This document shows, piece by piece, positions 12,401-29,501 of a DNA stretch of 64,000 nt. The position numbers and the translations under genes were made by a program. The stretch spans positions 34,583 to 98,582 of the forward strand of contig CALXOW010000100.1 of assembly GCA_944390115.1 (NCBI GenBank), in the 5' to 3' direction. The notes beneath the pieces were generated by a model. It worked only from the letters and a program-made list of their open reading frames with translations. It was not told the origin of the DNA and searched no databases. How positions within the stretch are numbered: position 1 is the stretch's first letter; every line of letters starts with the position of its first letter. This DNA is from an uncultured Anaerobiospirillum sp. (lineage in GTDB: Bacteria; Pseudomonadota; Gammaproteobacteria; Enterobacterales; Succinivibrionaceae).

Positions 12401-14383
12401 ATGAGTGAAGTTCCAATAAAGAGCAAGCACAGTGCTGCCTCCAACGTGCATCCCGCCCAACCGACCCCACCCAATCAAGCCCAATTCTCAGGCATGGCGC
12501 CTACCATGACGCCAGAGCAGTGGGCGCAGTTCCAGCAATTTCTGCAATTCCAGCAGTTTCAGGCCTTTCAGCAGCAAATGATGCTGCAACAAGGCCAGCC
12601 CATGCCTCAACCTTCAGCTGATCCCCAAGCGCAAGCGGCCGCGCTGCAAATGCAATGGCTGCAATATCAGCAATTTGTGCAGTTTCAGCAGATGGCGCTG
12701 ATGCAGCAGCAGGCGCAGCAGGCGTCAATAGGCCAGATGCCCCAAGCCATGCCGCCTCAGATGGCACCAAATGGCGTGATGTCCCAAGCCGTGCCAATGG
12801 CTACCACCGGCCCGATGCCGCAAGCCATGCCACCGCAGATGGCGCTCAATGGCATGCAGGCTCAACCGCAAGCTGTGCCGCCGCAGCTGTCATCTAACGG
12901 CCTAATGCAGCAACAAGCGCAACAGGCGCCGGGTGGCATGCCGCTCCAGCCGCAAGCTGTATCGCTTCAGATGACGCCGGGTGGCATGCCAGCTCAGTCG
13001 CAAGCCGTACCGCCTCAGATGGCGCCTCATGGCAGGTTGGCTCAGGTGCCCGCTGGAGCGTATCAGGGAACGATGCCATTTGGTGGCGGGCAAGCTACGT
13101 CATTACCGCAGTCGGGTGCCGCTCAGGGGCCAGGCTTAGGAGCCCAGCAGACTCAGCTAGGCCCAGCGCCGCAGGAGATGGTGCGGGCGCCGTCAGCAGG
13201 CGGGGCTGGGGTGGCGCCTGTGGCGGTGCCGGTCTTACCGGAGGCTACGACTCCTCTGCGCACGGCAGTGCCGCGCGTGGAGGAGACCGAGGAGGCGGCG
13301 CCGAGCGCGGGGCTGGTGGGGGTGCGCTCGGGGCGGCGTATCAAGCAGACGCTCTTTGAGCAAGACAGCGGGCTCTATCACTACGCCAACCTCTTTTTGC
13401 GCCATATCCGCGACGAGCGCGGCTACTCGCCTTTGACCTTCCAAAGCTATAAGGAAACCTTGGAGCGGGTGATTAAGTTCTTGAGCGCCCGGCCCTGCGC
13501 GACTTCCGCGACCGGCCTGCTCTCGTCGTGGTCTATGCTCGATAAGCTTGATATGCGTGCGCTCAGTCGGCATCTTAACTTCAAGAGCAATGATGAGCGC
13601 TACTCCAGCGCCAGCATCGCCCACGCGGTGCATGTGGTATCCTCGTTCTTTACCTTCTTGCAGCGCCAGCACCTGATCGCTACCAATCCGATGCAGTTCA
13701 TCACCGCGCCTAAGGCTAAGAATGCACTGCCGCGCGTGCTCTCGGCCCAAGAGGTTGATCAGCTGACCTCGACTGAGCTTAAGACGCCGCAGGATATCCG
13801 CAATCGCGCCATCACCGAGCTCCTGTTTTCATCGGGGCTACGTGTGGGCGAGCTTATCAGCCTCAACTTAGGCGATATCAGCTTTGATATGCGCGAGGTG
13901 CGGGTCGTCGGTAAGGGCGATAAGGAGCGCGTGGTGCCGGTCGGGCGGGTCGCTCTCGAGGCCATTGAGCGCTATCTTGCGGTGCGCTCCTACTTTAAGC
14001 CGCGTGATAACGCTTTGTTCGTCAATCGCTTGGGCACGCGCCTTAATGTGCGCACGGTCCAGACCTTTATCAAGGAAGCGGCCAAAAACACGGGACTTAC
14101 CGGCACGGTTACGCCGCACAAGCTGCGCCACTCCTTTGCCACCGAGCTCTTAAACCATGGGGCGGATCTGCGTTTAGTCCAGGAGATGCTGGGGCATTCC
14201 AATCTTGGCACCACCCAGATTTACACCCACGTGGATTTGGCTAGGCTGCAAGACGTCTATAACCACGCCCATCCTCGGGCAGCGGTCACCGCGCAAGATG
14301 AGGCGAGCGCGCAAAACGACCTCGAGCACAGCAAGGCCTTGTTTGAGATGCTGCCACCGGGCAGTGGGCCCAAGATCGATTAG
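12401..14383 (+). CDS. xerC: Tyrosine recombinase XerC with a 333-residue Gln/Met/Pro-rich N-terminal extension
   Basis: The C-terminal ~325 residues are a complete XerC, which with XerD resolves chromosome dimers at dif. The catalytic set is R481, K505, H573, R576, H599 and Y608. Spacings of 24, 68, 3, 23 and 9 equal those of E. coli XerC (R148...Y275), giving a constant offset of 333. The SAM-like core-binding domain starts near YANLFLRHIRDERGYS (~residue 325). Residues 1-310 are low complexity, rich in Gln, Met, Pro and Ala, with repeated MPPQMAP/QAVPPQM blocks. AAGGAGG precedes the ATG. Position after dapF and before uvrD is canonical. Whether the extension is processed or functional is unknown. 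Confidence 0.93.
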   Translation: MSEVPIKSKHSAASNVHPAQPTPPNQAQFSGMAPTMTPEQWAQFQQFLQFQQFQAFQQQMMLQQGQPMPQPSADPQAQAAALQMQWLQYQQFVQFQQMALMQQQAQQASIGQMPQAMPPQMAPNGVMSQAVPMATTGPMPQAMPPQMALNGMQAQPQAVPPQLSSNGLMQQQAQQAPGGMPLQPQAVSLQMTPGGMPAQSQAVPPQMAPHGRLAQVPAGAYQGTMPFGGGQATSLPQSGAAQGPGLGAQQTQLGPAPQEMVRAPSAGGAGVAPVAVPVLPEATTPLRTAVPRVEETEEAAPSAGLVGVRSGRRIKQTLFEQDSGLYHYANLFLRHIRDERGYSPLTFQSYKETLERVIKFLSARPCATSATGLLSSWSMLDKLDMRALSRHLNFKSNDERYSSASIAHAVHVVSSFFTFLQRQHLIATNPMQFITAPKAKNALPRVLSAQEVDQLTSTELKTPQDIRNRAITELLFSSGLRVGELISLNLGDISFDMREVRVVGKGDKERVVPVGRVALEAIERYLAVRSYFKPRDNALFVNRLGTRLNVRTVQTFIKEAAKNTGLTGTVTPHKLRHSFATELLNHGADLRLVQEMLGHSNLGTTQIYTHVDLARLQDVYNHAHPRAAVTAQDEASAQNDLEHSKALFEMLPPGSGPKID

Positions 14384-14922: not shown

Positions 14923-17900
14923 ATGGCAGCTCGGGCTTTAATTGACGATTTAAACGAACAGCAGCGCGAAATTGTCTTTGCGCCATTGGGGGATAGCCTG
15001 GTGGTCGCCGGTGCTGGTACCGGCAAGACTCGCGTTTTAATTGCACGCCTGGCCTACCTGCTCGAGGTCGAGGGCTTTGAGCCATATCAGATTATGGCGA
15101 TGACCTTTACCAATAAAGCCGCCGGCGAAATGAATGAGCGCCTGGCCACCGCAATGGGCTGGGAAGATAACAAGAGCATGTGGGTGGGCACCTTCCACGG
15201 CCTGTGCTTTCGCCTCTTGCGCCAGTACGCCCTTGAGGCCATGCTGCCCCAAAATTTCTCGCTGTTGACCCCCTCCGACCAAGAGACACTGCTGCGCAAT
15301 TTCTACACGAGCCATGGCATCAAGGTTAAGAACGATCCGAAGATGGGCTCGCTCAAGGACCATGGTCTTGACCCTAAGAGCGTGGTCAATCGCATTATGC
15401 GCATTAAAGATCGCGGTCAGCGCCCGCAAATTTCTGAGGCTGAGGCTCAGCACTATGTGCAACATCTGGAGCAAGAATGGCCGTCCTTAGTGCAGCGCTC
15501 CGATGACGAAATCTTTGAGGTGATCTTCGCCTGCTATGAGCGCATCCGCCAAAACTCAGGCTCAGTCGACTTTGCCGATCTCATTGTCTACGCGGTGCAC
15601 CTGCTGCATAGTAATGAGGCGGTACGCACCCGTTTGCAGCAGCGCTTTCGCTATATCTGCGTCGATGAGTTCCAAGACACCAACGAGATGCAGCTGCAAT
15701 TCCTGCTCTTGTTAAAGGGGCCTAATAACCACATCTTTGTGGTGGGTGATGATGATCAGGCTATCTACGGCTGGCGCGGGGCGCAGGTTGATAACTTAAA
15801 CAAGCTCGCGCAGGCGCTCCCTGAGATGAAGGTCTATGAGCTGACGATCAACTATCGCTCGAGCCAAGACATTCTCAATTTTGCTAATGCCGTGATCTCC
15901 GATTGCACCAATCGCTTAACGAAAAAGTCGCTGCTCAATCCTTATACCTTTGAGCTGTGGCGTCAAGAGGACTTATTCTTCTTGCGCTTGGTCGACCGCT
16001 CGCCCTTAAAACCACAGCTGGACGCTCTTCTGAATGGCCGTAGCCTCTACGATCTCGATTTTGTCGCGCGCGATGAGCTCATCACCGAATTGATTCGTGC
16101 GGGCATCTTAACTCCAGAGCTCTCCCAGTGGCGCCTTGATCGGCGCTCCTATATCTTCCCTGGCATGGCGCCTTTGTGCTCTTATGGCGCTGTCCCTAAG
16201 GAGGGCCGTGAGTGTATTACCTACGGTGGCACCACCAAATCAGGACGCATTGATTATTTGGCCCAGCGCAATGCTTCTTTTCCTGAGCTTAATTTGACCA
16301 ATCCTGAGGAAGTGGGCGTGCAGTACTATCGCTGGCAAGAGCAAGCTCTCACCCAAGATCCTAAGGCCTTTAATTTCCTCACTGAGAGCTTGGTTAAGAC
16401 TAAGCCACAGCCTGCCCTTGAGGGCAAGCTGGTGGCCTCGCGCCAGGCCTTAAACACCTTGAAGCGGCAAATGTGCTTGCTGCGGGAGCGCTGTGCGGAG
16501 CTGGGGCGCAAGCAGTGCTACGAGGAAATCCCGCACAACCAAGTGCACTTGCTGCAAGTGCAGGACAATACCTACACCACCTTTGGTCAGGACGATGGCG
16601 CCTTGGTGTTAGAGCTCTTAGGGCGCTTGCAAGAGAGCGGCTATCGCTATGAGGACATTGCGGTGCTCTATCGCAATAACGCGTTATCACTCCAGGTGGA
16701 GCGGGCGCTGGCGGGCAACAATATCCCCTACCAGGTCTATGGCGGTATCAAGTTCTATGAGCGTGCCGAAATCCTAAGTGCGATGGCCTATTTCCGCCTC
16801 TTGCTCAATCCTAAGGACGACGTTTCCTTTAACCGCGCGATTAATGAGCCGAAGCGCGGTATGGGTAAGGTGGCCTTAGGCAAGCTGGCCGACTTTGCGC
16901 AGCAATGCGGCCTTTCGATTTACGAGGCGATTGACCACATTGTGAAGACCCAAGATCGCCAGGGACTTAAGCTGATTAAGAAGTGCCAAGACTTCTACGA
17001 GCAAATGGAGGGCTTCAAGCGCCTGCTGCCTAAGATGAGGTTAGGTAACTTCCTAGCCAAAGTGATCGCAGAAAGTGGCCTGCGTGACTACTATGCAGAA
17101 GTGGACTTAAAGGATAAGGCCGCGCGCAAGGGTACCTCGCGCGTGGATAACTTAGACCAGCTGGTGGCCAATGCTAGGGAGTATGAGGAGCTGCAAGTTG
17201 CCACCCAAAACGGTGATTTAGCGACCATCAACTCGGTTGTGGCCAAGCAAAACGCGCGGCGCCGTGAGAACCAAAGTGACGAGGACTTAAGACGCATTAC
17301 GGCCGCCAATCAGGCGACCTTGGAGGCCAGCTCCGAGGGCGTGACGCTGACGCGCGCGGAACCTAATGACGCTCAATTTAGAGTCAATCTCTTCGTGAAC
17401 TTCGTGGCCTCATCGACCTTGGCTGCCTCAACCGAGCGCACCGCCGCAGGCAAGGAGCAAGATCGCGGCGTCCAGCTCATGACCATTCACGCCTCCAAGG
17501 GCTTGGAGTTCCCGGCAGTCATCTTAGTGGGCGTGGAAGAGGGCACGCTGCCATCGCGCCGCAGCGACGATGAAAACGAAGAGCGGCGCCTGCTCTATGT
17601 CGCGGTCACCCGTGCTCAGAAGTGCCTCTTTGTCACCTATAACCTCTCGCGCATGACCTACCAAGGCTCGGAGCCGACCGGCCCAAGCTCGTTCTTAGTC
17701 GAGGCGGTGCAGCACTTTGAGAATATGGGCTTAGACCTAGGTGATGCTAAGGCCCCTTATTGCTTTGATACCTTAAAGGGCCTCAGTGCCGTAAAAGAGG
17801 TCAAGGAGGTTGCCCCGGGCGCGCGTAAACCAAGCGCTGAGGGCAAGGTCGGGGAAAAGCGGCTGGAGCAATGGCTAAACTTCAAGGACCAGTCCAGTTC

Positions 17901-18024
17901 CGACTTTGACTCAGGCTTTAGCTCGGGCTTTGGCTCCGGCTATCGCTCCGGTTACGGCTCGAGCTACCGTTCTGGTTACGGCTCACGATATGGTCGAGGT
18001 GGTTCGCGCTGGAACCGCTGGTAG
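14923..18024 (+). CDS. uvrD: DNA helicase II (UvrD) with a ~210-residue insertion and a Gly/Tyr/Arg tail
   Basis: A superfamily 1 3'-5' helicase for excision and mismatch repair. Motif I is GAGTGKT (residues 30-36). Motif II is VDEFQDTNEMQ, motif III DDDQAIYGWRGA, motif IV NYRSSQDIL, motif V GLEFPAVILVGVEEG and motif VI RLLYVAVTRAQ. It has 1,033 residues against about 720 in E. coli. An unmatched segment (nt ~15946-16540) lies between NRLTKKSLL and the 2A domain restart at EDIAVLYRNNA. The last 35 residues are a Gly/Ser/Tyr/Arg-rich tail ending RWNRW, replacing the usual Tudor-like end. ATG 14923 matches where other UvrDs begin; the ribosome site is weak and a GTG at 14848 is an in-frame alternative. 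Confidence 0.94.
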   Translation: MAARALIDDLNEQQREIVFAPLGDSLVVAGAGTGKTRVLIARLAYLLEVEGFEPYQIMAMTFTNKAAGEMNERLATAMGWEDNKSMWVGTFHGLCFRLLRQYALEAMLPQNFSLLTPSDQETLLRNFYTSHGIKVKNDPKMGSLKDHGLDPKSVVNRIMRIKDRGQRPQISEAEAQHYVQHLEQEWPSLVQRSDDEIFEVIFACYERIRQNSGSVDFADLIVYAVHLLHSNEAVRTRLQQRFRYICVDEFQDTNEMQLQFLLLLKGPNNHIFVVGDDDQAIYGWRGAQVDNLNKLAQALPEMKVYELTINYRSSQDILNFANAVISDCTNRLTKKSLLNPYTFELWRQEDLFFLRLVDRSPLKPQLDALLNGRSLYDLDFVARDELITELIRAGILTPELSQWRLDRRSYIFPGMAPLCSYGAVPKEGRECITYGGTTKSGRIDYLAQRNASFPELNLTNPEEVGVQYYRWQEQALTQDPKAFNFLTESLVKTKPQPALEGKLVASRQALNTLKRQMCLLRERCAELGRKQCYEEIPHNQVHLLQVQDNTYTTFGQDDGALVLELLGRLQESGYRYEDIAVLYRNNALSLQVERALAGNNIPYQVYGGIKFYERAEILSAMAYFRLLLNPKDDVSFNRAINEPKRGMGKVALGKLADFAQQCGLSIYEAIDHIVKTQDRQGLKLIKKCQDFYEQMEGFKRLLPKMRLGNFLAKVIAESGLRDYYAEVDLKDKAARKGTSRVDNLDQLVANAREYEELQVATQNGDLATINSVVAKQNARRRENQSDEDLRRITAANQATLEASSEGVTLTRAEPNDAQFRVNLFVNFVASSTLAASTERTAAGKEQDRGVQLMTIHASKGLEFPAVILVGVEEGTLPSRRSDDENEERRLLYVAVTRAQKCLFVTYNLSRMTYQGSEPTGPSSFLVEAVQHFENMGLDLGDAKAPYCFDTLKGLSAVKEVKEVAPGARKPSAEGKVGEKRLEQWLNFKDQSSSDFDSGFSSGFGSGYRSGYGSSYRSGYGSRYGRGGSRWNRW

Positions 18025-18193
18025 CGGGCGCTGTGCCTGGTTGGCGCTGTGCCGAAGGCATTGGGAGCGGGCGCTGTTCCTAAGGAGTTGGGAGCGGGCG
18101 CTGTGTCCTGTGGTTGCGGGAGCTTGCTTCGGTGAAAGGGGCGCGGAGCCCTGAGGGTGGCAGTGGGAGCGCTGCCTGGGGGTGGGCTTTAGT

Positions 18194-18216
18194 ATGGCAC
18201 CTTGGTAAGGTGCCAT
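18194..18216. terminator. Hairpin between convergent uvrD and ferredoxin genes
   Basis: A 10-bp perfect stem ATGGCACCTT/AAGGTGCCAT with a 3-nt loop but no T-run on either side. Between it and uvrD (18025-18185) are degenerate GGGAGCGGGCGCTGT repeats. Confidence 0.5.
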
Positions 18217-18252
18217 GGCAGGAATGGGGCCGGTTTGAGGCGCTTTGCGCGC

Positions 18253-18456
18253 TTAGACGTCCTTCTTTGGGATGATGTCGGCCTCATCTACCTCGAAGAT
18301 ACTGCCGAACTCGCAGACATCCATGCAGGCGCCGCAGTCAACGCACAGATCGGGATCAATGGTGTGAACACCGTCAACGATGGAAATCGCATCACAAGGG
18401 CAAGCGTCCATGCAGCTGTCGCAGGCGGTGCAAGTATCGGGATCGATTACGAACAT
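18253..18456 (-). CDS. 2[4Fe-4S] ferredoxin
   Basis: 67 residues with two clostridial-type cluster motifs: C9-xx-C12-xx-C15-xxx-C19 and C38-xx-C41-xx-C44-xxx-C48. Such ferredoxins carry low-potential electrons in anaerobes. The start at 18456 is preceded by AGAGG on the minus strand. The C-terminal tail (FEVDEADIIPKKDV) is acidic then basic. It is monocistronic; its upstream region runs up to the left inverted repeat of the giant-gene element. Confidence 0.92.
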   Translation of the reverse strand: MFVIDPDTCTACDSCMDACPCDAISIVDGVHTIDPDLCVDCGACMDVCEFGSIFEVDEADIIPKKDV

Positions 18457-18615
18457 GAAAGCCTCTTTTTTAGAGATCTCAGTACAATTGCTGCAAGCGC
18501 AGCGCTTTGACTTAATATAGCATAAAGCGTGGGGCACGTAAGACGCGCTCAGGGGTAAGAGCCGTGATGACATCAGGCCGCGCGGCGTTGTTGATTTTAA
18601 TTTTCACTGAGGGGA

Positions 18616-18630
18616 GCTGTTACAAATTAA
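18616..18630 (+). repeat. Left inverted repeat of the giant-gene element
   Basis: GCTGTTACAAATTAA, a perfect inverse match to 26235-26249. The palindrome GCACCAAATTGGTGC (18635-18649) follows directly. Confidence 0.75.
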
Positions 18631-19114
18631 ATTTGCACCAAATTGGTGCTTTGTCTAATATCCGAACAGGACCATCGATTATCCGTTAAGTCAACTGACA
18701 ATTTGCAAAGCTTAGTGACTAGATTATTGGATAATATTTAACTGCAAATTATTAAATTTATATTTCTTAAGTTTTGCTCAATGATTATCATTACCTTTTT
18801 GTTTTGTGTTGAATATTGCGATATTGATATGTTTAGCAAAATACCTAACTTAAATTGCAAAAAGCGTCGTAATTTATAAAATCAAATACAGGTACTATAC
18901 CATGTATTTGTGTTAATCGAGTTGGATTCTGTAATATCAGCACTGAGTCTATAAATAAATTTAAGTTAAATATTATTTGTTAACTGCAAATAAAAATAAC
19001 AAAAAAATGGCCTGATTTATGCAATAGGAGATGTTGTTGTCAATTCTTTGTTGCCAACAGTTTTAGGGGCTAACACCTCGGCCGTGCCAACACCCCATAT
19101 TCCCAAATAAAGGA
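18631..19114. other. AT-rich left region of the element with subterminal direct repeats
   Basis: 484 bp without a gene and far more AT-rich than its surroundings. TTAACTGCAAAT occurs twice in direct orientation (18738-18749 and 18980-18991), with related TTGCAAA motifs near 18702 and 18857. This resembles subterminal binding sites plus the promoter region of the giant gene. No clear promoter can be singled out because AT-rich -10-like strings abound. Confidence 0.5.
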
Positions 19115-22100
19115 GTGATGCTTTTGACTCAGATGGCTTCCACTTCAACCCGCGCAGATGACGCTTTGTCCGCTTCGGACAAAGACGAAATCTGCTCGGC
19201 TCAAAGTGACACCAACTCTGAGCAAAACAAGTCAGCTCCGACACACAATGCCAGAGCCCTAAACGATATTAGAGCCTGTGCCCCTAAAGCGACCGCCAAG
19301 CCATACTTCTACTTATCCAATCACTCGGATGGCTGCCTTGAAATCAACCCTAATCTTGAGCTATTGACCGCAGCTCCCTACCTTAACAAGGCGATTCGTT
19401 TGCCTAATGCTGGCAATGAGTTTGGAATTTTCTCGTTGCCTAGGGTAGGAATGGTGCAAACTGCCACCGTCCTTGCGCAAAGCCGCGCTTGCTCGCAACG
19501 CCTTGATGCATCCTCCTTGCTCCAGCCACTCTTGCCTCATATTCATTACTGCCCAATTGACCCTGAGGTGGTCGAAGAAACGCTCTATGTCGGTGTGTGC
19601 TTTACCCTGATTACCAAGAGCGCTTTACAAATGGCTAAGCGTGATGGCCATAAACTGATTGAGCGGCTAGGCGTGGGGCGTTATCACTATAAGTTCATCA
19701 CCCCATATCAGGTCAAGGATTGCCTGCCGACTGACGAAGTCTATTTCGTGCCCATTACTATGCTGGATGAAGTTAATGCCACCTTAGAGGAGGTGCAAAA
19801 GCATCACCCAACGTGGTTAAAGCAACTTCCAGCGGAAATTGAGTCGCAGCTTTATCAGTTTCACCTCGAGCGTTTGCGTAAGCTTGCGCACAAGCAGCAA
19901 GAGAAGCAGGAGCGTAAGAGCAAGAAGGACAAGCCCAAGCAGCCTCAGACCCGCAAAAAATACACTCCCAGAAACGGTGCGTTTGTCCGCTTAGCCCCAC
20001 ACATTGTCACCGCCCAAGAGCAAGGGCTTGGTTTAGCCTCGAGTGGCACCATCATCTTGAAACCGCTTGAGTTCTATCAGGGCCAGCCGCAAGGTGAAAG
20101 CTTTCAGGCCGATACCCAAAAGGCAAAACCTGAGCTAATCCCTACCGGCGCTGATGACAGCCACACAGATGAGGAATCTCGCAAGCGTAGCATTACCGCC
20201 CTGCGTGAGCAGATTGTCAGAAAACTGCTGGCTAAGGGCCGCATTATTAGACTGGATAAGAAGCAACGCCAGCGTGTCGCTTTGCGCCAAGAGGCTATCT
20301 TAAACCATGGCTATCACTGCGATACCAATCGGCTCCAAATCTACTTGGAGGCCCACTTTAAGGGAGCTTTGACGCATTTTGACAAAGGTATTAACGCCCA
20401 ACTTACGCCTCTGTGCATCCCTCATGCGTCCCTGGTGCGTGACCCTCTGCCCTGTTTTAATGCTGAGACCTATGTAGCTCATGGCCTCTTGCTCGCTGCT
20501 GACTGTGCCGACTTAATGTACGGCTGGTATGAGCTCGCAAAGACAGCACAGGCCAAAAGTACCGCTAAGAAATCAGCTCAGGCGCAAGATGAGAGTGAGA
20601 CTGAATCTAAGCTCTTTGCCCCGTGTCAGCGCCTGCAGCAGCATGCCATGCTGCTCTTAGAACAGCTGGGCAATTTTTATCTAGAAGCTGGCTTAGCCAA
20701 TGAAATTGTTACTTCGATTGCGGCAGCCCAAAAACTGAGCACCGATTGGCACAAGGCCTTAAACCAAGAGCACAAAAAGGCTCAAGAAGATAAGAACAAG
20801 TCTGCATCCACCAAGACTGAGGACGCTAGCGCTAAGGATGATGGTGTAAGCTCAACAGCTGAGACAAGCGCAGCTGAAGCCTCTACCACTAAGACTGACG
20901 CCACAAGCTCCGCAGCTAATATAAGCGAAGCTGAGGACGCTAAAGCTGATACTACAAGCTCGGAAGCTGAGATAAACGAGAATGCGCCGAACGCTCCAAC
21001 TCCAGCAAAGCCTGCTCAGTCTGAAAAGCTTAGGGCGCAACTGTTAGCAAAATTACAACAGGTTAAGACTGCGGCGCAATTACAGCCCTTGGTGTACCCA
21101 GAGCTTACTGAGTTGGTCGAGCTGAGTGCGGACTTAACACATAACTTGGGGCAAACCCCAAGTATGGCGCAAGTGCAAGATTGGACTGAGCGCAGTTTAA
21201 AGCTGGCGCAAAGCTTGTGCCGTTCACCCTTAATCCTGCTCAATGCTGCTCCTGATGAGCGCCTGCATGATGCTCAAGCTGCTACTGAGTGGCTCTTACA
21301 GCTAGTTGAATTTGGGCAATGTTTGCGTGCCCCATTGCACCTAGCAAGCTATGCTTTACTGCTTAAGCAGTGCTGCCGAGAGGAGGCAGCTTTAGTCGCT
21401 GCACCTTACTACGAGTCGCATTGGCAACGCCAACCTGCTTGGTTCGAGTACTTATGCAAACTCTTAAGTAAGAGTGAGGTCTTACTCCAAAAGCTGGCGT
21501 TAGGCCAAGACTCTGATGCTGACACCGTTGGGCCTACGTTGCATGCAGTCAAGGCATGTGCGCAGGAGGTAAACACTCTGTGCCGCAAAGCCTGCAATAG
21601 TGTCCGCAGCCAAGTCTGCCGCAGTCAAAATGCGGTGCGGCATATTCTCAGTGCTACCCCAGAGCGTTTGCAGCCGCAACTGCACGTTTTAGCGCAGCTT
21701 AATAAACTCCAAGCACTCTCTGAGCAAATTTTCGCTGATTTACAGCAAGGCAAGCCTCAGCTTGAGCTGGTAGTGCCCCTGTGCCATGAGCTATATGGCT
21801 TACAGCAGTTCATGCTGCGCCAGCTCACCGTGCAAGATGAGCCTTGTGCTGTCCTAACAGAGTTAGACCAAGCTTGCTATATCAGCAAGTTAGTAGCGCA
21901 TGAACTTGACTTCAGTAGCACAGAAGCGCACACGCAAGCGCTGCTGAGTGGACTGAGCTCAACTTTAGAGCCTGCTAGCATCACTATGGCGCGCTTGCAG
22001 GAGCTATCTGAGAGTAATCTGAGCTCTGAGCTGACCAAAGCTTTCCAAGTAACTGGCACCAGTTTTACCGCAGTACAACAAGCGCTGAGTGTGGCCCAGT

Positions 22101-25100
22101 CTGAGCTTAACACTGATAACTTAGCCGCCCTCAAAGAAGCTATCGCTAAGCTTGCCCTGCACCATCGTGAGCTTAGCGCTCTGATAGCACCAAGCTATAA
22201 CCCACGTGCTAACAAATATTGGCGCACGGACTACGAGACTCCAGACAGACGTGATGATGACACCAAGGTGCAAGCCCAGTGGCTGTTAGCACCGGTGCGT
22301 TCTGCTAGGGCGCTACTTACTGCCTTGAACTTGGCGGTTACACCCAAGAGCAACGTCATGCCAGAAGATAAGGCCACGCAGCTTAAGTTGGCGGCACCGC
22401 TTATCCTAGCTGAGGTCAATAAGCTCTGGGTAGTGAGCACCTACTTAGAGCCCAATAAGCTGGGCGCATTGACGGCACCGTTACAGCAAGCCAAGGAGGT
22501 GCTAACTAAGTTAAGCGCCCCGGCTCAGAGCGAGACAGAATCTCATCCAGAACTGATTGAGGTGTTACGTACCAGCCTGAAGCAGGCGGCCACTAAGGTC
22601 AAGAGCTTGAGCTATCAGGTGCCTAATAAGAGCACCTTTAAGCCACAAGCGGCGGTGGTACGCCGCCTATCCACCTTGGACAAGTTGGCACAGCTGATAG
22701 CAGACAATCCCGCTTTTGAAGTGAAATTTGCGCTGGCGCACAAGCTTATCCCGGCAGTCATGAGCTTACAGCATGACCTCCGAGCCTTGCCTGGGAAGCA
22801 AGTTTCTGAACTTAAGACGTTACTGGTACAAGTTCAAGCTCATCTTGACCATATCAGCAAGGGTGAAGTGCCAGCTGAGGGTAAGGTTGTAACCTTGCTG
22901 CAGCAAGGCGCTGCTCCCGCCTGTTTGCTGCTCAAGGAACAAAGTCACAAGCAAAGTGCGGCTCATGTTGCAGCCCTGCATCAGCGCTTTACTCTGATGC
23001 GGTCGCGTCTTAATGCCCGTACGGGTTATGAGGCCATCAAACTTAACCCTGAGCTCATAGAGCTTTATCACAGCCAGATTAATCTGTGCACCTTTGATAT
23101 TTGGGCGCCCAAACTGCAAGCGCTGGCCAATACGGCCGAACTGTCAGCTGCGTTCTTGGGCTTAGATGACAAGGCACAAGCCACATATCAACTTCACCTC
23201 TATTGGAGTGCGTTATTTTATCGCCAAGCGCATACCCTAAAGGCTTTCTTTGAAACCTCTCATGAGTACTTTGATAAAAAGTACAAAAAGTATCAAGCTG
23301 CGCTTAAACAGCTGCAACAGCAAGTTGCTGATGAGTGTAATCAAACTCAGCTAAATAAAAACCAGGCCACCTCAGCAAGCAAGAAAAAACTTGTTTCCAA
23401 TAAGGATGAACTCGAAACAAATCTTGCCGAAGTTAAGCATAATCTTGCCTTAATTCAGCCATTATTTGATCAAGTTAAATTCTTTGAATCTATTGCTCAT
23501 AGACGTTTTCAAAGATTTTACTCCCACCTTGTTCAGCTTAAAGTTGATTTAATTAATTTCGTTGGCGACCGTCAAGGTTCTGAACTTACCGATATTCTTA
23601 GCTTTAAGACTCCACTAATATCATCTAGCGAATGTCAAGTAGTATTAAGTCAAGTCCAAGATAAAGCTCTAAAGCAATTGACTGGACTTATATCCAATCA
23701 AAATAAAGCACGGGGCAAACAACGCTCAGCCCTTAATACTGCCCGTGATAATATTAAACTTGTTGCTGGTTGGACTGGGCTTGCCGGGTGGAATACGGCC
23801 AAAATCGCTGAGATGAGAACCAAATATCTGCTTAAGCAGGGTTTATTGGTGATGGTGGAGGAGAAGGTACCCCCTTTAACTTCTGATAAATCTGATAAAT
23901 CAGCATCTCTAACCTCTAACCAAACGGGCGACGTCAAGGACCGCAACGATTCAGACCACAGTAACTTAAAGTCTGAACCAAATGTGGCCCAAGACCAAGA
24001 AGAGCATAGCAACGAAGCCAAGCCCCAGCCTAGCCACTCCGAAACAGAGAATGATGAAGCGACTGATACTACTGTAGTACGTCAACTCACCGTAGGCGCA
24101 CCTGCTTGTGACCGCCTTTGGTCCTGCGCCTATAATCGCGAATACCGCAATACTAAGAACTTTCGCTCTTTCATGAGTCATGCTGGTGATAAAGGCACCC
24201 GCATCGTGCAGTCGACTTTCATGCGTAAGGGTAAGAAGAAGCTTACTGCTAAGCTTGAGGCCAAAGCCTTTTGTGCCGATGGCTGGGTCCATCCGGTCGC
24301 ACTGCCCCTTGATGTTAGGGGTAATAAGCGTGGTCACCTGTGGGATTTAATCGCCAAGCGTGATGGGAAGGTTAGGGTTCAGCATATTTGCATTGTCTAT
24401 AACAATGTGCGCACGAAGGATGGGCGCCTCATCAAGCGTCTTACCGTCAACAGTTGTATCCCTGGACTGCCACCTTTTGCCTCACAGCGAGTATTTAAGG
24501 CCATGAAATATCGTGGCATTGATATCAATGATAAAGCCGCAATGGAGAAGTGGCGCGAATGTGTGGTTGCAGTTGACCCTAGCACTCAGTCAATTACTGT
24601 TTTATCGAGCTCTAATGATGGCTCAAAATTCAATCTTGCCATTAAGGATTTTCTTGATCGCGAAAACAAGAAGAATGCTGCCAAGCTGCAGCAGCTTGAG
24701 CTTAAACTGAAGCAAGACAAGCGTGCCTATAGTGAGCACATAGCTAAAATTAATCCCAAGTTATACGATAAAAATAACAAAAGATTAAGCAATGCTGAAG
24801 TGCGTGCTAAATTTGGCGATTGCCAAGAATGGTATGACAAAAAAGCACTGAGCCTAAATTATCGTGTGCTTCAAGATAATCAAGATATCTACCAATTTCG
24901 TAAGGAATGCCAGTTTAAGGTTATTTGTGACATTATAGCCTTAGGTGGTACTGTTATTATTGAAGATATGAGTTATAACGGCCTTAAAAAGAGAGGCCGT
25001 AAGACTCCATCCCAGAAAGAAGGAGATGATTACAAGGCATTTCTGCCTGATGAGCTCAATAAACTTGACCCAGAGCCTGATTCCCTTCAGCCTCAAATTC

Positions 25101-25894
25101 AGACTTCCGCAGGCAACTGTGGTAGTAGCACCAATAGAACGAATAATCGTGCAAAGAAGGCAGCAAGGGGTAAGGCAGCAGCAAGTGATAAGCGAGCACA
25201 GCAGGCAGGAACGGCCTCACCAGGCAAACCTCAGCCTCTCAATCAAGAGGCTCAGGTGAACCCAACCGGTCAGAGCAGACCAAGCCATAAGCTAAATCCT
25301 GCTAAAAGCTGGTCCCGCTACGGTGCTTCTATTGGCCGCGCTGCGCCTGCAACCTTTATCAAAAGGTATAGCGCTATTTTGGCTAAATTAGGTGGAGTTT
25401 TAATCAAAGTTCCACCCCAGCTGCTTAAGGCAACCCAGCGCAATCCGCTGCTCTTTATCGACCATCCTAAAGCCTTCCAAAAGCTCAAGGGTGGCATAAA
25501 TCAGCGGTATAAGCCCGTGCTTGTACCAAGTGAAATTAGCGGGAGCGAACGTGATGAAGAGGTATGGATTCAACGTGACTTTATGGCAGCATTTACTTTA
25601 ATGCATGCCATTTGTAACAAGAGTCGTATCTCAGGCCCTGGCAAGACTTGCGTACTCAATGACGTTGATGTTGCAGCCTGTCGCGCCGATTGGCCTAACT
25701 TCCTGCGGGCATATTACTATGCTATGAAGCATCTATGGAATAAGGGGCTATGCTCTGATTGTGTTAAAGAAAATTTACGGCCAAGTAAGTATGACCTCCA
25801 ATCCAACGATTGGTACTGGGGGATGAAAGCTTGGTCTAAAACAAATAAGGTAAAGCAAGAACTTTGTTCAATAAAAGCAAGTCAACCTCAGTGA
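19115..25894 (+). CDS. Giant protein (~2,260 residues) with C-terminal TnpB/Cas12-like RuvC nuclease core
   Basis: Not a family I can name. Residues ~1-1585 are mostly helical, Ala/Leu/Gln/Lys-rich and unlike known domains, broken by acidic Ser/Thr/Ala/Glu linkers at ~565-630 and ~1585-1650. From ~1660 the chain looks like a TnpB/Cas12 nuclease. RuvC-I is VVAVDPSTQSITVL with D1821. A Lys-rich helical span follows, then RuvC-II GGTVIIEDMSYNGLKKRGRK with E1950. Next comes RYGASIGRAAPATFIKRYSA, which fits the conserved pre-RuvC-III segment. RuvC-III is WIQRDFMAAFTLMH with D2155. All three acids are present, so nuclease activity is possible. The zinc finger usual in TnpB is absent apart from a lone CxxC (C2213, C2216). 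AAGGAG at 19110-19115 suits a TTG start at 19124 better than the GTG at 19115 or ATG at 19118. No cas genes or CRISPR array are nearby. Confidence 0.7.
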   Translation: MMLLTQMASTSTRADDALSASDKDEICSAQSDTNSEQNKSAPTHNARALNDIRACAPKATAKPYFYLSNHSDGCLEINPNLELLTAAPYLNKAIRLPNAGNEFGIFSLPRVGMVQTATVLAQSRACSQRLDASSLLQPLLPHIHYCPIDPEVVEETLYVGVCFTLITKSALQMAKRDGHKLIERLGVGRYHYKFITPYQVKDCLPTDEVYFVPITMLDEVNATLEEVQKHHPTWLKQLPAEIESQLYQFHLERLRKLAHKQQEKQERKSKKDKPKQPQTRKKYTPRNGAFVRLAPHIVTAQEQGLGLASSGTIILKPLEFYQGQPQGESFQADTQKAKPELIPTGADDSHTDEESRKRSITALREQIVRKLLAKGRIIRLDKKQRQRVALRQEAILNHGYHCDTNRLQIYLEAHFKGALTHFDKGINAQLTPLCIPHASLVRDPLPCFNAETYVAHGLLLAADCADLMYGWYELAKTAQAKSTAKKSAQAQDESETESKLFAPCQRLQQHAMLLLEQLGNFYLEAGLANEIVTSIAAAQKLSTDWHKALNQEHKKAQEDKNKSASTKTEDASAKDDGVSSTAETSAAEASTTKTDATSSAANISEAEDAKADTTSSEAEINENAPNAPTPAKPAQSEKLRAQLLAKLQQVKTAAQLQPLVYPELTELVELSADLTHNLGQTPSMAQVQDWTERSLKLAQSLCRSPLILLNAAPDERLHDAQAATEWLLQLVEFGQCLRAPLHLASYALLLKQCCREEAALVAAPYYESHWQRQPAWFEYLCKLLSKSEVLLQKLALGQDSDADTVGPTLHAVKACAQEVNTLCRKACNSVRSQVCRSQNAVRHILSATPERLQPQLHVLAQLNKLQALSEQIFADLQQGKPQLELVVPLCHELYGLQQFMLRQLTVQDEPCAVLTELDQACYISKLVAHELDFSSTEAHTQALLSGLSSTLEPASITMARLQELSESNLSSELTKAFQVTGTSFTAVQQALSVAQSELNTDNLAALKEAIAKLALHHRELSALIAPSYNPRANKYWRTDYETPDRRDDDTKVQAQWLLAPVRSARALLTALNLAVTPKSNVMPEDKATQLKLAAPLILAEVNKLWVVSTYLEPNKLGALTAPLQQAKEVLTKLSAPAQSETESHPELIEVLRTSLKQAATKVKSLSYQVPNKSTFKPQAAVVRRLSTLDKLAQLIADNPAFEVKFALAHKLIPAVMSLQHDLRALPGKQVSELKTLLVQVQAHLDHISKGEVPAEGKVVTLLQQGAAPACLLLKEQSHKQSAAHVAALHQRFTLMRSRLNARTGYEAIKLNPELIELYHSQINLCTFDIWAPKLQALANTAELSAAFLGLDDKAQATYQLHLYWSALFYRQAHTLKAFFETSHEYFDKKYKKYQAALKQLQQQVADECNQTQLNKNQATSASKKKLVSNKDELETNLAEVKHNLALIQPLFDQVKFFESIAHRRFQRFYSHLVQLKVDLINFVGDRQGSELTDILSFKTPLISSSECQVVLSQVQDKALKQLTGLISNQNKARGKQRSALNTARDNIKLVAGWTGLAGWNTAKIAEMRTKYLLKQGLLVMVEEKVPPLTSDKSDKSASLTSNQTGDVKDRNDSDHSNLKSEPNVAQDQEEHSNEAKPQPSHSETENDEATDTTVVRQLTVGAPACDRLWSCAYNREYRNTKNFRSFMSHAGDKGTRIVQSTFMRKGKKKLTAKLEAKAFCADGWVHPVALPLDVRGNKRGHLWDLIAKRDGKVRVQHICIVYNNVRTKDGRLIKRLTVNSCIPGLPPFASQRVFKAMKYRGIDINDKAAMEKWRECVVAVDPSTQSITVLSSSNDGSKFNLAIKDFLDRENKKNAAKLQQLELKLKQDKRAYSEHIAKINPKLYDKNNKRLSNAEVRAKFGDCQEWYDKKALSLNYRVLQDNQDIYQFRKECQFKVICDIIALGGTVIIEDMSYNGLKKRGRKTPSQKEGDDYKAFLPDELNKLDPEPDSLQPQIQTSAGNCGSSTNRTNNRAKKAARGKAAASDKRAQQAGTASPGKPQPLNQEAQVNPTGQSRPSHKLNPAKSWSRYGASIGRAAPATFIKRYSAILAKLGGVLIKVPPQLLKATQRNPLLFIDHPKAFQKLKGGINQRYKPVLVPSEISGSERDEEVWIQRDFMAAFTLMHAICNKSRISGPGKTCVLNDVDVAACRADWPNFLRAYYYAMKHLWNKGLCSDCVKENLRPSKYDLQSNDWYWGMKAWSKTNKVKQELCSIKASQPQ

Positions 25895-26219
25895 TATCCC
25901 TTATACCCTTATATAAGAATAAGGATATGAGGTGTGTTTGTGTGGCAACATATATCTTAATGCAAGATATGCAATAATCGGCGCTTGATTGTTGGTTGTA
26001 ACATAAACAATCATTGAAATTGCTTTTGATTTGACTTGTCTCTTGCTGGGGGATATGGGCTGTAGCCGTGCATTTTATCAAGAAATGTACGGTCCTCCAT
26101 AAGTAAGCTGCTTTAACAAGTAACACTGCTTAAAAGATGATATTACATCTTATAATGTAATCCAATTAATGGTGCATAGCGTAGATGAGGGGACTCTCTG
26201 GGGTCGCCAAGTCTGCACC
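25894..26219 (+). ncRNA. Candidate structured RNA (possible guide RNA) at the right end of the element
   Basis: Five hairpins lie in 326 bp between the giant gene's stop and the right inverted repeat. They are 25894-25928 (ATATCC(C)TTAT/ATAAGGATAT), 25986-26013 (TGATTGTT/AACAATCA), 26066-26092 (10-bp stem CCGTGCATTT/AAATGTACGG with one G-U), 26142-26161 (ATTACAT/ATGTAAT) and 26171-26219 (GGTGCA/TGCACC enclosing GACTC/GGGTC). TnpB systems make their guide RNA from the element's right end, so this is where one would be expected. Strand, ends and expression are unknown. Confidence 0.4.
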
Positions 26220-26234
26220 GTTAAGAGGCATTAA

Positions 26235-26249
26235 TTAATTTGTAACAGC
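26235..26249 (-). repeat. Right inverted repeat of the giant-gene element
   Basis: TTAATTTGTAACAGC, the exact reverse complement of the left repeat. TTGTAACA recurs just inside the right end at 25996-26003, and AGTAACA at 26119-26125, as possible subterminal copies. Confidence 0.75.
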
Positions 26250-26270
26250 CCCCTGAGGAAAAGGACCTAA

Positions 26271-26999
26271 ATGGACACTCCAACTAGTGCTTCAGTTGCG
26301 GCAAACTTGCAGCAAGTGCATGGTGCGATTGATCAGGCCTGTCAGGCGTGCGCCCGTGCTGGCAGTGAGGTGCGCCTGCTTTGTGTCTCCAAGACCAAGG
26401 GCGAGGATTTAATCAAGGCCGCCTATGAGCAAGGGGAGCGCCATTTTGGTGAGTCCTATGTCTCCGAGGCCGTGGGCAAGATTGAGTCGTTGCGCGCCCA
26501 AGGTTTTAACGACATCGTATGGCACTTTATTGGCCCAATTCAGTCTAATAAGACCAAACATATCGCTGCCCACTTTGATGTGGTCGAGTCGGTGGAGCGC
26601 CGCAAGATTTTGGAGCGCTTATCGGCCCAGCGCCCGGATGATTTGCCCCCGCTCAAGGTCATGTTGCAGGTCAACATTTCTCATGAAGAGCAAAAGCAAG
26701 GCTGTGAGGTTGAGGAGCTCCCTGAATTGCTTGAGGCTGCCTCATCTTTGCCTAAGCTTGAGCTGATAGGCTTGATGGGCGTGGCCCGCATTGATGCCAG
26801 TGAGTCCGAGCTCAACGCGCAGTTTGGTCAGCTTAAGGCCTTACAAGAGCGCTTTTTAGCGCAATACCCTGGCCTTAAGGAGCTGTCGATGGGTATGACC
26901 CATGATCTGGGGCCTGCGATCGCCCAAGGCTCTACTGAGGTGCGCATCGGGACCGCGATCTTCGGTGAGCGTGATTACTCCAAGATGCATAAGAATTAA
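26271..26999 (+). CDS. yggS: PLP homeostasis protein YggS
   Basis: A single-domain fold-type III PLP-binding protein that buffers free pyridoxal phosphate and has no known catalytic activity. The lysine of LLCVSKTK binds PLP. HFIGPIQSNK, LQVNISHEEQKQG, GLMGVARI and LSMGMTHDL are family signatures. 242 residues. The ribosome site (GAGGAAAAGG) lies just outside the right repeat of the mobile element, so any promoter must now lie in or beyond that element. First of yggS-proC-yggT-bamD. Confidence 0.95.
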   Translation: MDTPTSASVAANLQQVHGAIDQACQACARAGSEVRLLCVSKTKGEDLIKAAYEQGERHFGESYVSEAVGKIESLRAQGFNDIVWHFIGPIQSNKTKHIAAHFDVVESVERRKILERLSAQRPDDLPPLKVMLQVNISHEEQKQGCEVEELPELLEAASSLPKLELIGLMGVARIDASESELNAQFGQLKALQERFLAQYPGLKELSMGMTHDLGPAIAQGSTEVRIGTAIFGERDYSKMHKN

Positions 27000-27014
27000 G
27001 GATTGTGTTTAGCT

Positions 27015-27824
27015 ATGGCACTTAAAATCGGCTTTATTGGCGGCGGCAACATGGCCTCCTGCATCTTCAAGGGCATTGTTACGACCCGCCCGCACCAAGA
27101 TCAAATCATGGTGAGCGGTCCGCACTTAGAGAAACTCACGGCCTTTAAAGAGGCCGGGGCTGAGCTCACGGTGGATAATGTCGCGGTCGCAACTTGGGCT
27201 GACGTCCTGTTCTTAGGCGTCAAGCCGCAGATCATGCCTGAGGTACTTGAGGAAATTAAGTCCGTTGATTTCTCGGGCAAGCTGGTAGTGTCGATGGCCG
27301 CAGGCTGGCGCTTGAGCGCCTTTTACTCACGCTTAGGTGAGATTGCCTTAGTGCGCATTATGCCTAATACCCCAGCTAAGCTCGGTCTTGGGGTCACCGC
27401 CGTTTGCCCTGGTGCGCACGTAAGTGAAGAGCAAACTAAGCTCTGCCTTGATCTGTTAGAGGGCCTTGGTAAGACCGTGCTTACCGATGAAGCGGGCATC
27501 AATAGCTTGGGGGCGCTGGCAGGCTCGAGTCCCGCCTTCCTCTATCGCTTCTTAGAGGCCCTGGTCGCCGAGACGGTGGCGCATGGCTTCAGCGAGTCTG
27601 AGGCGCGGGCCATCATCGAACAAATGGCCTTAGGCACCGCTTCGATGGTGATCGCCAACCAAGATCAATCCTTAGCCCAATTGCGTGAGGCGGTCACCTC
27701 CAAGGGTGGTACCACCTTCCAAGGCTTAGCTCAGATGACCAATTATCATTTTGAGGATATGATGCATGATGTCATTGAGGCTTGCCTGCGCCGCACGCGC
27801 GAGTTCGAGGACATGTTCAAATAG
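27015..27824 (+). CDS. proC: Pyrroline-5-carboxylate reductase
   Basis: Last step of proline synthesis, NAD(P)H-dependent. The N-terminal Rossmann motif is KIGFIGGGNMASCIF. GVKPQIMPEVL, RIMPNTPAKLGLGVTA and the C-terminal dimerisation signature LREAVTSKGGTTFQGL identify it. ATG 27015 begins the family sequence; the frame stays open to a TTG at 27003. 15 nt after yggS, so co-transcribed. Confidence 0.96.
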   Translation: MALKIGFIGGGNMASCIFKGIVTTRPHQDQIMVSGPHLEKLTAFKEAGAELTVDNVAVATWADVLFLGVKPQIMPEVLEEIKSVDFSGKLVVSMAAGWRLSAFYSRLGEIALVRIMPNTPAKLGLGVTAVCPGAHVSEEQTKLCLDLLEGLGKTVLTDEAGINSLGALAGSSPAFLYRFLEALVAETVAHGFSESEARAIIEQMALGTASMVIANQDQSLAQLREAVTSKGGTTFQGLAQMTNYHFEDMMHDVIEACLRRTREFEDMFK

Positions 27825-27849
27825 CCCGGTTTTTTAGTGGATTTTTCGT

Positions 27850-28416
27850 ATGGCGTCACTCTTCCCTGTGCTGCTCTTAGTGGCTTCAGCCGTGATAATG
27901 CTCTTTGAGCTGCGCTCCTTAATGCAAAGCTCAGCGGCCGATTACTATCACCCCCTGACCCAAGCTGTCACCAAGCTCACCAACCCAGTGGTTAATATTC
28001 CGCTGTGGCGTAATATCCGTTTAGGATCCTTCTTCCTGCACGGCTTTATTGTCGCGGTGCTCGTGGCCTTGGCCCTGTGGGTGTTGATCGCGCTGTTCTT
28101 TTTGAATATGCCGCTGCTCTATATTCCGCTGGCTGCCTTGTTGATGCTGCTTAAGACTACGGGCTATCTCATTATCTTCTTGCTCTTAGCCCAGGCCTTA
28201 ACCTCGTGGCTGCCGGCCACGCGCGGGTGGAGCTTCTTATTTGCCCAAATCAATGCCCCGATCGTAGCTCCGGTGCAGCGCATCATTCCGCCGATTGGTA
28301 TGATCGATATCTCGCTCATGATCGTTTTAATCGCCATTTATGCGCTCAATTCGCTCATGTATGCGGTGCTGAAGCAAATTGATTTTGGCTTACTGGTTAT
28401 TTGGCAAATAGTTTAG
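27850..28416 (+). CDS. yggT: YggT-family inner-membrane protein
   Basis: 188 residues with several hydrophobic helices and two copies of the YGGT-type repeat (FELRSLMQSSAADYYHPLTQAVTKLTNPV and WLPATRGW...INAPIVAPVQRIIPPIGMIDIS). The function is not established; the family is tied to osmotic tolerance and cell-envelope work. It sits directly after proC, as in many gammaproteobacteria. Confidence 0.92.
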   Translation: MASLFPVLLLVASAVIMLFELRSLMQSSAADYYHPLTQAVTKLTNPVVNIPLWRNIRLGSFFLHGFIVAVLVALALWVLIALFFLNMPLLYIPLAALLMLLKTTGYLIIFLLLAQALTSWLPATRGWSFLFAQINAPIVAPVQRIIPPIGMIDISLMIVLIAIYALNSLMYAVLKQIDFGLLVIWQIV

Positions 28417-28496
28417 GCCAGATGAGGGCCCCTAGTTTTGGTAGAATAGGGGCTTTAGTGAGTCTAGGTAAGACGTGTTTGAAATGGAGCTTTTCC

Positions 28497-29501
28497 ATGC
28501 TTAAGTTTCTGGCCGGCGCAGTGCTGTGCTTATCCTTGGCGGTAGCCACCGGCTGCGGCTCGAACTATAACAGTGACGAAGTCCCTGATGTATCTCCAGA
28601 AAACCTCTATAACGTCGCTAAGGCGGGTATGACCACCGGCGACTATGGTGCGGCACGTCGTTACCTGGAGGCTTTAGACAGTCGCTATCCATTCGGCGAT
28701 CTGACCCAGCAGGCTCAGCTCGATCTCATCTATGTCTATTACAAGACCCGTGAGACCGAGCTGGCTTCGGCTATGATCGAGCGTTTCATCCGCTTGAGCC
28801 CAACTCATCCTAATATCGACTATGTCTATTACATGAAGGGCTTAACCCAGATGCAGCGCCGCGCCGATATGATCCAAGACTACTTGGGCTTAGAGCGCTA
28901 TGAGAAGGATCCAACGGACTACGTTAACGCCTTCAATACCTTCAAGCAATTGATCACCACTTACCCTAACAGCATCTACGCCGCCGACGCCCGTCAGCGC
29001 ATGATTTACATCAAAGATGAGTTAGCCAAGCGTGAGATGGCGATTGCCCAATACTATTACGAGCGTGGCGCTTATCTGTCTTCGATTCGTCACAGCCAAA
29101 ACATTCTGTCTACCTATCGCACCACAACGCAATTAGAGCCGGCCTTAGAGAATATGGCGCGCTGCTACGAGCTGCTCAATTTACCAGAGCCAGCCGCCAA
29201 CGTCCGTCAGGTCATGGCCGCCTCCTTTGGCTCTGACTACACGCCAGTAGCGCAGGAGAATGCTTCGCTGCCATTAAATCCTGATGGTACCGTGCCAAGC
29301 ACCGACCAAGAGGGCGTAAAGCGCACTACGGCTGAGGGCGATACTTGGCTTGATAGCGTCGCCGGATTCTTCTTTGATATCTGGGATGATACGCTCGGCT
29401 CTCAGAGCGCCTCGGAGGCCCAGCGCAATCAGGCTATTACCTCCCAGCCCATGGAAGTAAATGAGGAGCCTCAGCCAGAAGAGGTCACCTCGGAAGAGTA
29501 G
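28497..29501 (+). CDS. bamD: Outer-membrane assembly lipoprotein BamD
   Basis: An essential partner of BamA in beta-barrel insertion. The signal peptide ends at a lipobox with Cys20 (VATG-C). Five TPR-like helical repeats follow, with PENLYNVAKAGM, YGAARRYLEALDSRYPFG, IDYVYYMKGLTQM and DARQRMIYIKDELAKREM. 334 residues, about 90 more than E. coli; the excess is an acidic, Pro/Glu-rich C-terminal tail. The start at 28497 has GGAG 8 nt upstream. The 80-nt gap after yggT, with TAGAAT near 28442, may hold a separate promoter. Confidence 0.95.
   Translation: MLKFLAGAVLCLSLAVATGCGSNYNSDEVPDVSPENLYNVAKAGMTTGDYGAARRYLEALDSRYPFGDLTQQAQLDLIYVYYKTRETELASAMIERFIRLSPTHPNIDYVYYMKGLTQMQRRADMIQDYLGLERYEKDPTDYVNAFNTFKQLITTYPNSIYAADARQRMIYIKDELAKREMAIAQYYYERGAYLSSIRHSQNILSTYRTTTQLEPALENMARCYELLNLPEPAANVRQVMAASFGSDYTPVAQENASLPLNPDGTVPSTDQEGVKRTTAEGDTWLDSVAGFFFDIWDDTLGSQSASEAQRNQAITSQPMEVNEEPQPEEVTSEE

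Follow-up and report, generated by a model that had tools for sequence, protein, structure and literature searches.

A giant TnpB-like gene carried by an inverted-repeat transposon with IS5-type relatives in Anaerobiospirillum

Introduction

TnpB proteins, the OMEGA nucleases, are encoded within transposons of the IS200/IS605 and IS607 kinds, which are moved by a Y1 transposase or a serine recombinase, and they possess a RuvC core with the residues Asp-Glu-Asp. The accessible part of Bao and Jurka (2013; PMC3627910) describes bacterial TnpB as known solely from IS200/605 and IS607 elements. Here we analyse a transposon of 7,642 bp that spans positions 18612-26253 of a 64,000-nt stretch of DNA from an uncultured Anaerobiospirillum sp. 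(the window, to which all coordinates refer), and whose one gene encodes a giant protein with a TnpB-like C-terminus. As with TnpB, the RuvC D-E-D core is present and the gene lies within a transposon, with a folded noncoding right end beside the host flank and a possible left-flank motif. In contrast to TnpB, the protein has no zinc ribbon and measures 2,259 aa, against the 340-489 aa given in the available text of a six-species survey whose set excluded proteins of >600 aa (PMC9956272), while the element has inverted repeats, a 4-bp target duplication and DDE-type relatives.

Fanzor1 of eukaryotes and their viruses is likewise a TnpB-lineage gene in a transposon with terminal inverted repeats and target-site duplications, of which it is sometimes the sole gene. 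The host of the window element, however, is bacterial, the giant protein lacks a zinc ribbon and is more than three times the 600-700 aa stated for most Fanzor1 proteins in the available part of PMC11423790, and its right-end RNA is here a candidate only. Cas12 proteins of type V CRISPR-Cas are also large RuvC proteins of the TnpB lineage. The window gene differs from these in forming a mobile single-gene element: none of the 20 direct-repeat families listed, of at least 60 at 17000-28500, was CRISPR-like (no CRISPR finder was run), no cas gene was seen by eye in the flanking frames (no cas models were run on the neighbours), and there was no match to PDB sequences. With the IS5 family the element shares a short target duplication, derivatives in the form of miniature inverted-repeat transposable elements (MITEs) and, in Candidatus Anaerobiospirillum pullistercoris (genome G001), a DDE transposase at the same kind of end, but no transposase is present in the window element itself, the one gene of which is a nuclease-like gene of 6.8 kb. 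No such element is described in the listed titles and abstract openings of the accessible, mostly open-access literature on TnpB with DDE, IS5 or inverted-repeat elements, on large TnpB or on this bacterial family. With a probability of roughly 0.6, we propose that a giant nuclease of the TnpB type, guided by an RNA from the right end, has been captured by an IS5-type transposon and is retained by cutting empty sites, guidance and cleavage being predicted.

Results

Limits, target duplication and mobility of the element

A preceding reading of the same DNA, made from the sequence only, had described perfect 15-bp inverted repeats around a single gene. These are present at 18616 and 26235 as the sole matches in the window allowing up to two mismatches, and none of 100 shuffles gave two such matches. 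The TGT...ACA ends proposed as the boundary of the element had to be moved outwards. Since similarity to a copy in a second Anaerobiospirillum species (G003) begins at 18612, exactly at GGGAGCTG, and since GGGA or GGGG precedes the 15-mer at the ends compared, with four exceptions (L002, L039, L047 and L050), the true ends lie 4 bp outside the 15-mers. The same comparison of end families, with the repeat search for the right end, delimits the terminal inverted repeats as GGGAGCTGTTACAAATTAA on the left (18612..18630, + strand) and GGGGGCTGTTACAAATTAA on the right (26235..26253, - strand). A sub-terminal palindrome, GCACCAAATTGGTGC (18635..18649, + strand), is an alpha-type end motif with similar counterparts at the left ends of the subfamilies A (that of the window copy), B and D introduced below, and a motif resembling it also occurs at the transposase-side end in G001.

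An empty site between the ferredoxin and yggS genes of a related genome, which the sequence-only reading had named as a check on mobility, was found in G003, where the interval without the element reads TTCACCGAG-GAAAAAGG, compared with TTCACTGAG-element-TGAGGAAAAGG in the window. The comparison therefore gives both an empty site and a 4-bp duplication, TGAG, at 18608..18611 and 26254..26257 (both + strand), which is represented by a single copy, CGAG, in G003. IS200/IS605 and IS607 elements have neither terminal inverted repeats nor a target duplication, and the window element has both; these are the inverted repeats and short fixed-length target duplication of an IS5-type DDE transposon.

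The G003 contig that carries the related copy starts inside it, and alignment over 1,327 positions (window 18612-19921) gives 97.9% identity, with 3 differences in 807 coding bases (2 synonymous codons and 1 other codon). The copy adjoins genes other than those of the window. Because the copy is more alike than the neighbouring host DNA, for which five aligned blocks displayed 82.8 to 93.6% identity, the element has spread recently between the species. The end pattern was found 26 times in the window's own genome (22 exact and 4 with one mismatch) and, in exact form, 28 and 47 times in two relatives; it was absent from the remaining 8 of the 11 genomes of the genus, and a reversed-pattern control gave none. 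As expected of repeats, which break assemblies, 18 of these 22 exact matches lie less than 1 kb from a contig end. G001 additionally contains seven MITEs of ~120 bp, each with two such ends, and 4-bp duplications (TGTA, ATAA, ATAA, TGCT, ACTT and ACTA) were present at all six with both flanks readable, the seventh (contig C58) running to the contig end with a single flank. Judged from these sequences, the element has moved between sites and species. The single-gene mobile element of the sequence-only reading is thereby borne out by copies at other loci, the empty site and the 4-bp duplication. One constant locus without inverted repeats, which would have spoken against it, is not what was found, the copies occupying many loci and carrying repeats, while a domesticated defence gene, one of its suggestions, is unsupported for an element that is multicopy and recently spread between species.

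A TnpB-lineage RuvC domain at the C-terminus of the giant protein

The giant gene occupies 19115-25894 (+ strand) in the open reading frame list, with 2,259 codons from GTG, in agreement with the protein of about 2,260 residues announced beforehand. The GTG overlaps a Shine-Dalgarno-like AAAGGAG (19109..19115, + strand), and the B and D relatives carry TTG at the place of TTG 19124, so that a start at this TTG (2,256 aa) is the likelier one. Residues 1 to ~1560 match no known family. A TnpB-lineage region was placed by hhalign and a sequence alignment, A2, at approximately residues 1690-2238 (24182..25828, + strand; limits judged from the alignments). The catalytic residues lie exactly where they had been predicted, namely Asp1821 of RuvC-I (24575..24577), Glu1950 of RuvC-II (24962..24964) and Asp2155 of RuvC-III (25577..25579, in a QRD motif; all + strand), and they are kept in the B copies and in small TnpB-like relatives wherever a row of A2 covers them, while the Q, R and D of RuvC-III are invariant across 10 rows. 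In hhalign, a profile of five small TnpB-like sequences aligned with giant residues 1564-2238 at a probability of 92.6 and an E value of 6.3e-8, in a single comparison of shallow profiles that included the TnpB-like frame L154, which has frame errors and was excluded from the family scan. Open frames of 490, 550 and 617 aa among the small relatives (G005, G002 and G001, respectively) match the NCBI model of RNA-guided TnpB at 5e-19, 2e-14 and 1.6e-15, so that these proteins from the same bacterial family connect the giant with that model. The D, E and D of RuvC-I, II and III that characterise TnpB are thus found in a TnpB-homologous C-terminus, and at the sequence level alignment A2 and hhalign identify the last ~550 residues as a RuvC domain of the TnpB lineage, upholding the earlier assignment of a RuvC core to the TnpB/Cas12 lineage.

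Several results count against a straightforward identity with TnpB. The small relatives score 53.2 to 68.8 bits on NF040570, under its curated cut-off of 100 bits, and the giant-like frame of G004 scores 21.9 bits; the giant protein matches no TnpB, Cas12 or RuvC model (whole protein, with five members scanned on NF040570); and the C4 zinc ribbon is absent, a single Cys lying between E1950 and D2155. Because the curated-model and zinc-ribbon tests failed, we call the protein TnpB-like and do not file it as TnpB. By eye, the zinc ribbon is missing from the small relatives as well, and a zinc-ribbon-less TnpB-like group (L149, L150, L151, L154 and L116) was observed in the Succinivibrionaceae, under the curated TnpB cut-off where scanned. 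The giant had no significant match in Pfam, PADLOC, NCBIfam or PDB sequences, PHROGs being outside the search, and within these collections the label of an undescribed family is a fair one.

Subfamilies, derivatives and relatives of the giant gene

On sequence comparison, the window's own genome holds at least two giant-gene subfamilies, A and B. Pieces of B, 34-51% identical to the window protein, were located on contigs C20, C68, C120, C81 and C100, all of them cut by contig ends. The N-terminal parts of A and B are 34-37% identical, and because of this conservation the ~1,560 N-terminal residues are probably functional, as an enlarged recognition lobe or a partner-binding part. The N-terminal frame of a B relative gave a DUF29 match of 0.0022, below the model cut-off. 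A third subfamily, D, is probable from its end sequences, the fold of its right end and a short open frame that is cut off by the contig end after 67 aa, counted from the ATG. A tblastn search with the window protein gave no confirmation of D as a giant, and no further D copy emerged when the genus was searched with a profile.

Giant-related matches were obtained in 4 of 57 genomes of the family, among them G001, G004, which has a distant giant-like frame, and G024, from another genus, where the match is weak. In 369 genomes of the class, besides the own genome, only one, with a TnpB-sized frame, passed 1e-4, and the giant profile matches at 7e-5 a TnpB-like frame of 398 aa that belongs to another family. 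The C-terminal part of the giant found no match in one scan each of viral contigs, plasmids and phages, and in one scan of genome contigs only Ca. A. pullistercoris matched. G004 has a diverged giant-like gene and a diverged transposase piece, each near end-like sequences ending TAAATTAA (L115 4218 and L118 about 600).

Shortened derivatives exist. An internally deleted B element lies between yggS and proC in G003 (L075, contig C1, 13300-13663), where it alters the last residues of YggS; the window has no such element. Within it, CCTGAACTTTTCAAATTTAGG is surrounded by a long palindrome, the arms of which resemble sequences in L072; this is probably another small repeat family. Ends of a further type, C (L076 15587, L079 3457 and ten others), are giant-like right ends, so classed by hairpin and flanks only, and no giant gene was found next to them in the two long loci read. 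Such truncated derivatives, together with the lost zinc ribbon, would suit a decaying or repressor-like relic in which the RuvC site or the RNA is inactive and which is merely spread by a transposase. We regard this as distinctly unlikely in view of the long open frame, the three retained acids, the near-identical left parts in two species and dN/dS values below 1 in all four pairs of copies compared (0.49, 0.45, 0.34 and 0.21).

Association with an IS5-type transposase

In G001, a DDE transposase gene overlaps at its 3' end with an end of the same kind, GGGAGCTGTTATAAATTAA; the product of this gene matches Pfam DDE_Tnp_1 at 6e-17 and the NCBIfam IS5 model at 6.8e-24 (84.7 bits, cut-off 140). 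Transposase pieces adjoin all five ends of this transposase-side class (G1) in G001. On contig C42 of that genome, the transposase and the start of a giant gene are divergent, head-to-head, with no end in between; the giant piece there is an open frame of 542 aa, of which 78 residues are 36% identical to the window protein (E 1.7e-10). A treatment of the G001 transposase-side ends as plain right ends of an insertion sequence was dropped after this arrangement was seen. In our best reading, the element belongs to a family of the IS5 type (DDE, cut-and-paste). The sequences suggest a two-gene ancestor, comparable to tnpA plus tnpB, of which the window element is a single-gene derivative. The window copy lacks a DDE transposase of its own, and the noncoding DNA at the left of A, B and D (~500 bp in the window) had no similarity to the transposase at an E value of 10. 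The earlier statement that no transposase or CRISPR is near thus holds for this copy, for CRISPR among the repeats listed, but a transposase does adjoin a relative, and the accompanying suggestion of a nuclease moved in trans is plausible, the same kind of end bordering an IS5-type transposase there.

Against this link it must be set that the head-to-head pairing is known from one contig, with the transposase split by a nested insert and a giant match of 78 residues, and that, in the window's own genome, a transposase of this kind was seen only as a fragment. One might suppose the giant protein to act as transposase for its element, alone or as an essential component, with an unrecognised recombinase in the N-terminal 1,560 residues and a RuvC part that aids excision. 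The intact ends around a single gene, left noncoding parts that do not resemble the transposase in A, B and D, an N-terminus without a known domain and the flank motifs that differ between subfamilies (see below) all fit such a role. We nevertheless find it rather unlikely, as the IS5-type DDE transposase adjoining the giant gene in G001 accounts for the inverted repeats and the 4-bp duplications, and the same-ended MITEs would require only a trans-acting transposase.

A structured right end as candidate guide RNA

Folding against shuffles marked 26035..26253 (+ strand) as a structured noncoding region, a candidate scaffold for a guide RNA of the reRNA/omegaRNA type, and the adjoining host flank, 26254..26277 (+ strand), is predicted to encode the guide, which would have 26254 as its first position, or 26258 should the duplication form part of the scaffold. 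This prediction is modelled on TnpB and Fanzor1 right-end RNAs as set out in the available parts of PMC8612924 and PMC10711439. The 219-nt A right end gave a z of -4.60, with none of 200 shuffles equally stable, and the right ends of B, G1, D and C (one C end folded) gave -5.29, -5.95, -5.93 and -5.88, respectively, the folded regions of A, B and G1 being 219-270 nt long. Left-end controls, in contrast, gave -1.54 (219 nt) and -1.30, -2.07 and -0.48 in three left windows. The last 150 nt alone gave -2.99 (A), -4.97 (B) and -4.63 (G1; 1 of 200 shuffles equally stable), and a z of -3.44 was obtained for the 150 nt that directly follow the stop codon.

When 100 nt are folded, the right ends of all four of A, B, D and G1 form an outer stem and an inner hairpin and contain the motif AGCGT(A/G)G. 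In addition, GGGCUGU (26057-26063) is predicted to pair with ACAGCCC of the right repeat, and a compensating change is seen between A (GGGCUGU/ACAGCCC, in the one copy long enough) and B (GAGCUGU/ACAGCUC, in all eight copies long enough); in D, a pairing partner of the right repeat was not found within the 242-255 nt available. A terminal repeat is likewise predicted within the guide-RNA scaffold of Fanzor1 elements in the accessible text of PMC10711439. From sequence and predicted folding, the right end looks like a guide-type RNA.

The structural evidence is not uniformly favourable. Longer B folds lose the outer stem of the 100-nt fold and prefer another arrangement, and the best G1 fold omits the pairing between repeat and partner, which would require G to pair with U at one position. 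Across the alignment the right-end helix covaries weakly: 15 of 500 shuffles attained its score, 322 of 500 matched its number of pairs altered on both sides, and one slid version scored 0.225 against 0.222. RNAalifold gave just 5 pairs and no consensus RNA structure, and Rfam had no match in the right end. RuvC nucleases of the TnpB lineage act in defence in CRISPR systems, and the giant gene could be a passenger or defence gene, for example against plasmids or phages, that rides an IS5-type element, in which case the folded right end would serve as a terminator or bind the transposase rather than provide a guide RNA. The weak alignment-wide covariation, and sub-terminal inverted repeats that could be transposase sites, agree with such a passenger. 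The position of the gene and the folded right end are, however, common to A, B and G1 (z -4.6 to -6.0), the giant had no significant match in the defence library, and the flanking genes (by eye a UvrD-like helicase, ferredoxin, yggS and proC) look like housekeeping genes, the neighbours not having been scanned against that library; we therefore deem a passenger unlikely.

A one-sided motif in the left flank

Just outside the left target duplication the window reads TCAC (18604..18607, + strand), the AC of which is a left-end motif and a candidate target-adjacent motif. We counted flanks after dropping ends with fewer than 14 bases before the 15-mer and treating identical last 20 flank bases as one; four ends of unassigned class (L047, L050 and one side each of L204 and L208) were omitted, and L183 and L190 were assigned by hand to D and A. 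Of the 33 left (alpha) ends, 24 have AC at -6,-5, compared with 2 of the 33 right (beta) ends (p 2.5e-8); the counts are distributed over A (3/5 left, 0/6 right), B (10/16, 1/17), D (7/7, 0/6) and G1 (4/5, 1/4). Without G1 the counts are 20/28 against 1/29, and at other offsets AC reached at most 4/28 at the A, B and D left ends. The C ends had AC at 2/12 and the MITE ends at 2/14. The subfamilies also differ in their motifs, WAAC in D and mostly RYAC in B, an A at -7 being present at 7/7 left ends of D but 2/16 of B (p 1.5e-4).

Such a one-sided, subfamily-specific motif would be the trace of a target-adjacent motif if elements at unsuitable sites are lost. It could equally be an end-specific target preference of the transposase. 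All five G1 left ends border transposase pieces, with a giant gene seen behind only one, the F ends, of which 3/5 have a transposase fragment, show AC at 2/5, and the MITE ends may not be alpha-type and are hence an imperfect control.

Other features of the window

Elsewhere in the window, adjacent genes at 57856-58839 and 59397-60386 (- strand) encode, by eye, two RNA polymerase alpha subunits of 327 and 329 aa with nearly identical C-terminal ends and different N-terminal domains. A tyrosine-recombinase-like protein, XerD-like by eye, is encoded at 12401-14383 (+ strand) and has an unusual glutamine- and proline-rich N-terminal extension of ~300 residues. The gene at 50147-52297 (+ strand) encodes what by eye is a PTS-type transporter, the N-terminus of which is a tandem GAGQ-rich repeat of 21/42-bp units (repeats at 50204-50374).

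Discussion

In the mechanism that we favour, a family of IS5-type transposons would carry the gene of a giant TnpB-lineage nuclease, either alongside its transposase or in place of it, and an IS5-type transposase that recognises the shared ends would drive the window copy in trans. Excision by this transposase would leave an empty site. The right end would be transcribed into a guide RNA with its 3' end extending into the host flank, and the giant protein would bind this RNA, with the right flank as guide. It could then cut the re-sealed empty site, made up of motif, duplication and right flank, after excision or on the sister chromosome, and repair from an occupied copy would restore the element.

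A more elaborate version, which we consider very unlikely, would make of these parts a two-component RNA-guided transposon. In it the giant protein and the right-end RNA would both cut empty sites and help the IS5-type DDE transposase to choose or re-enter motif-adjacent sites, with the N-terminus as the coupling part, in the manner of a DDE analogue of CRISPR-associated transposons derived directly from TnpB.

If the capture and retention that we propose are correct, the element would parallel in bacteria what is seen with Fanzor1, namely the capture of a TnpB-lineage nuclease by a DDE transposon, with a protein several times larger than the TnpB proteins that we found described. Its ~1,560 N-terminal residues constitute a large stretch of unmatched protein conserved in a mobile element. 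With several natural end families, an empty site and two further species that have many copies, the idea of retention by a nuclease would become testable outside IS605 and IS607.

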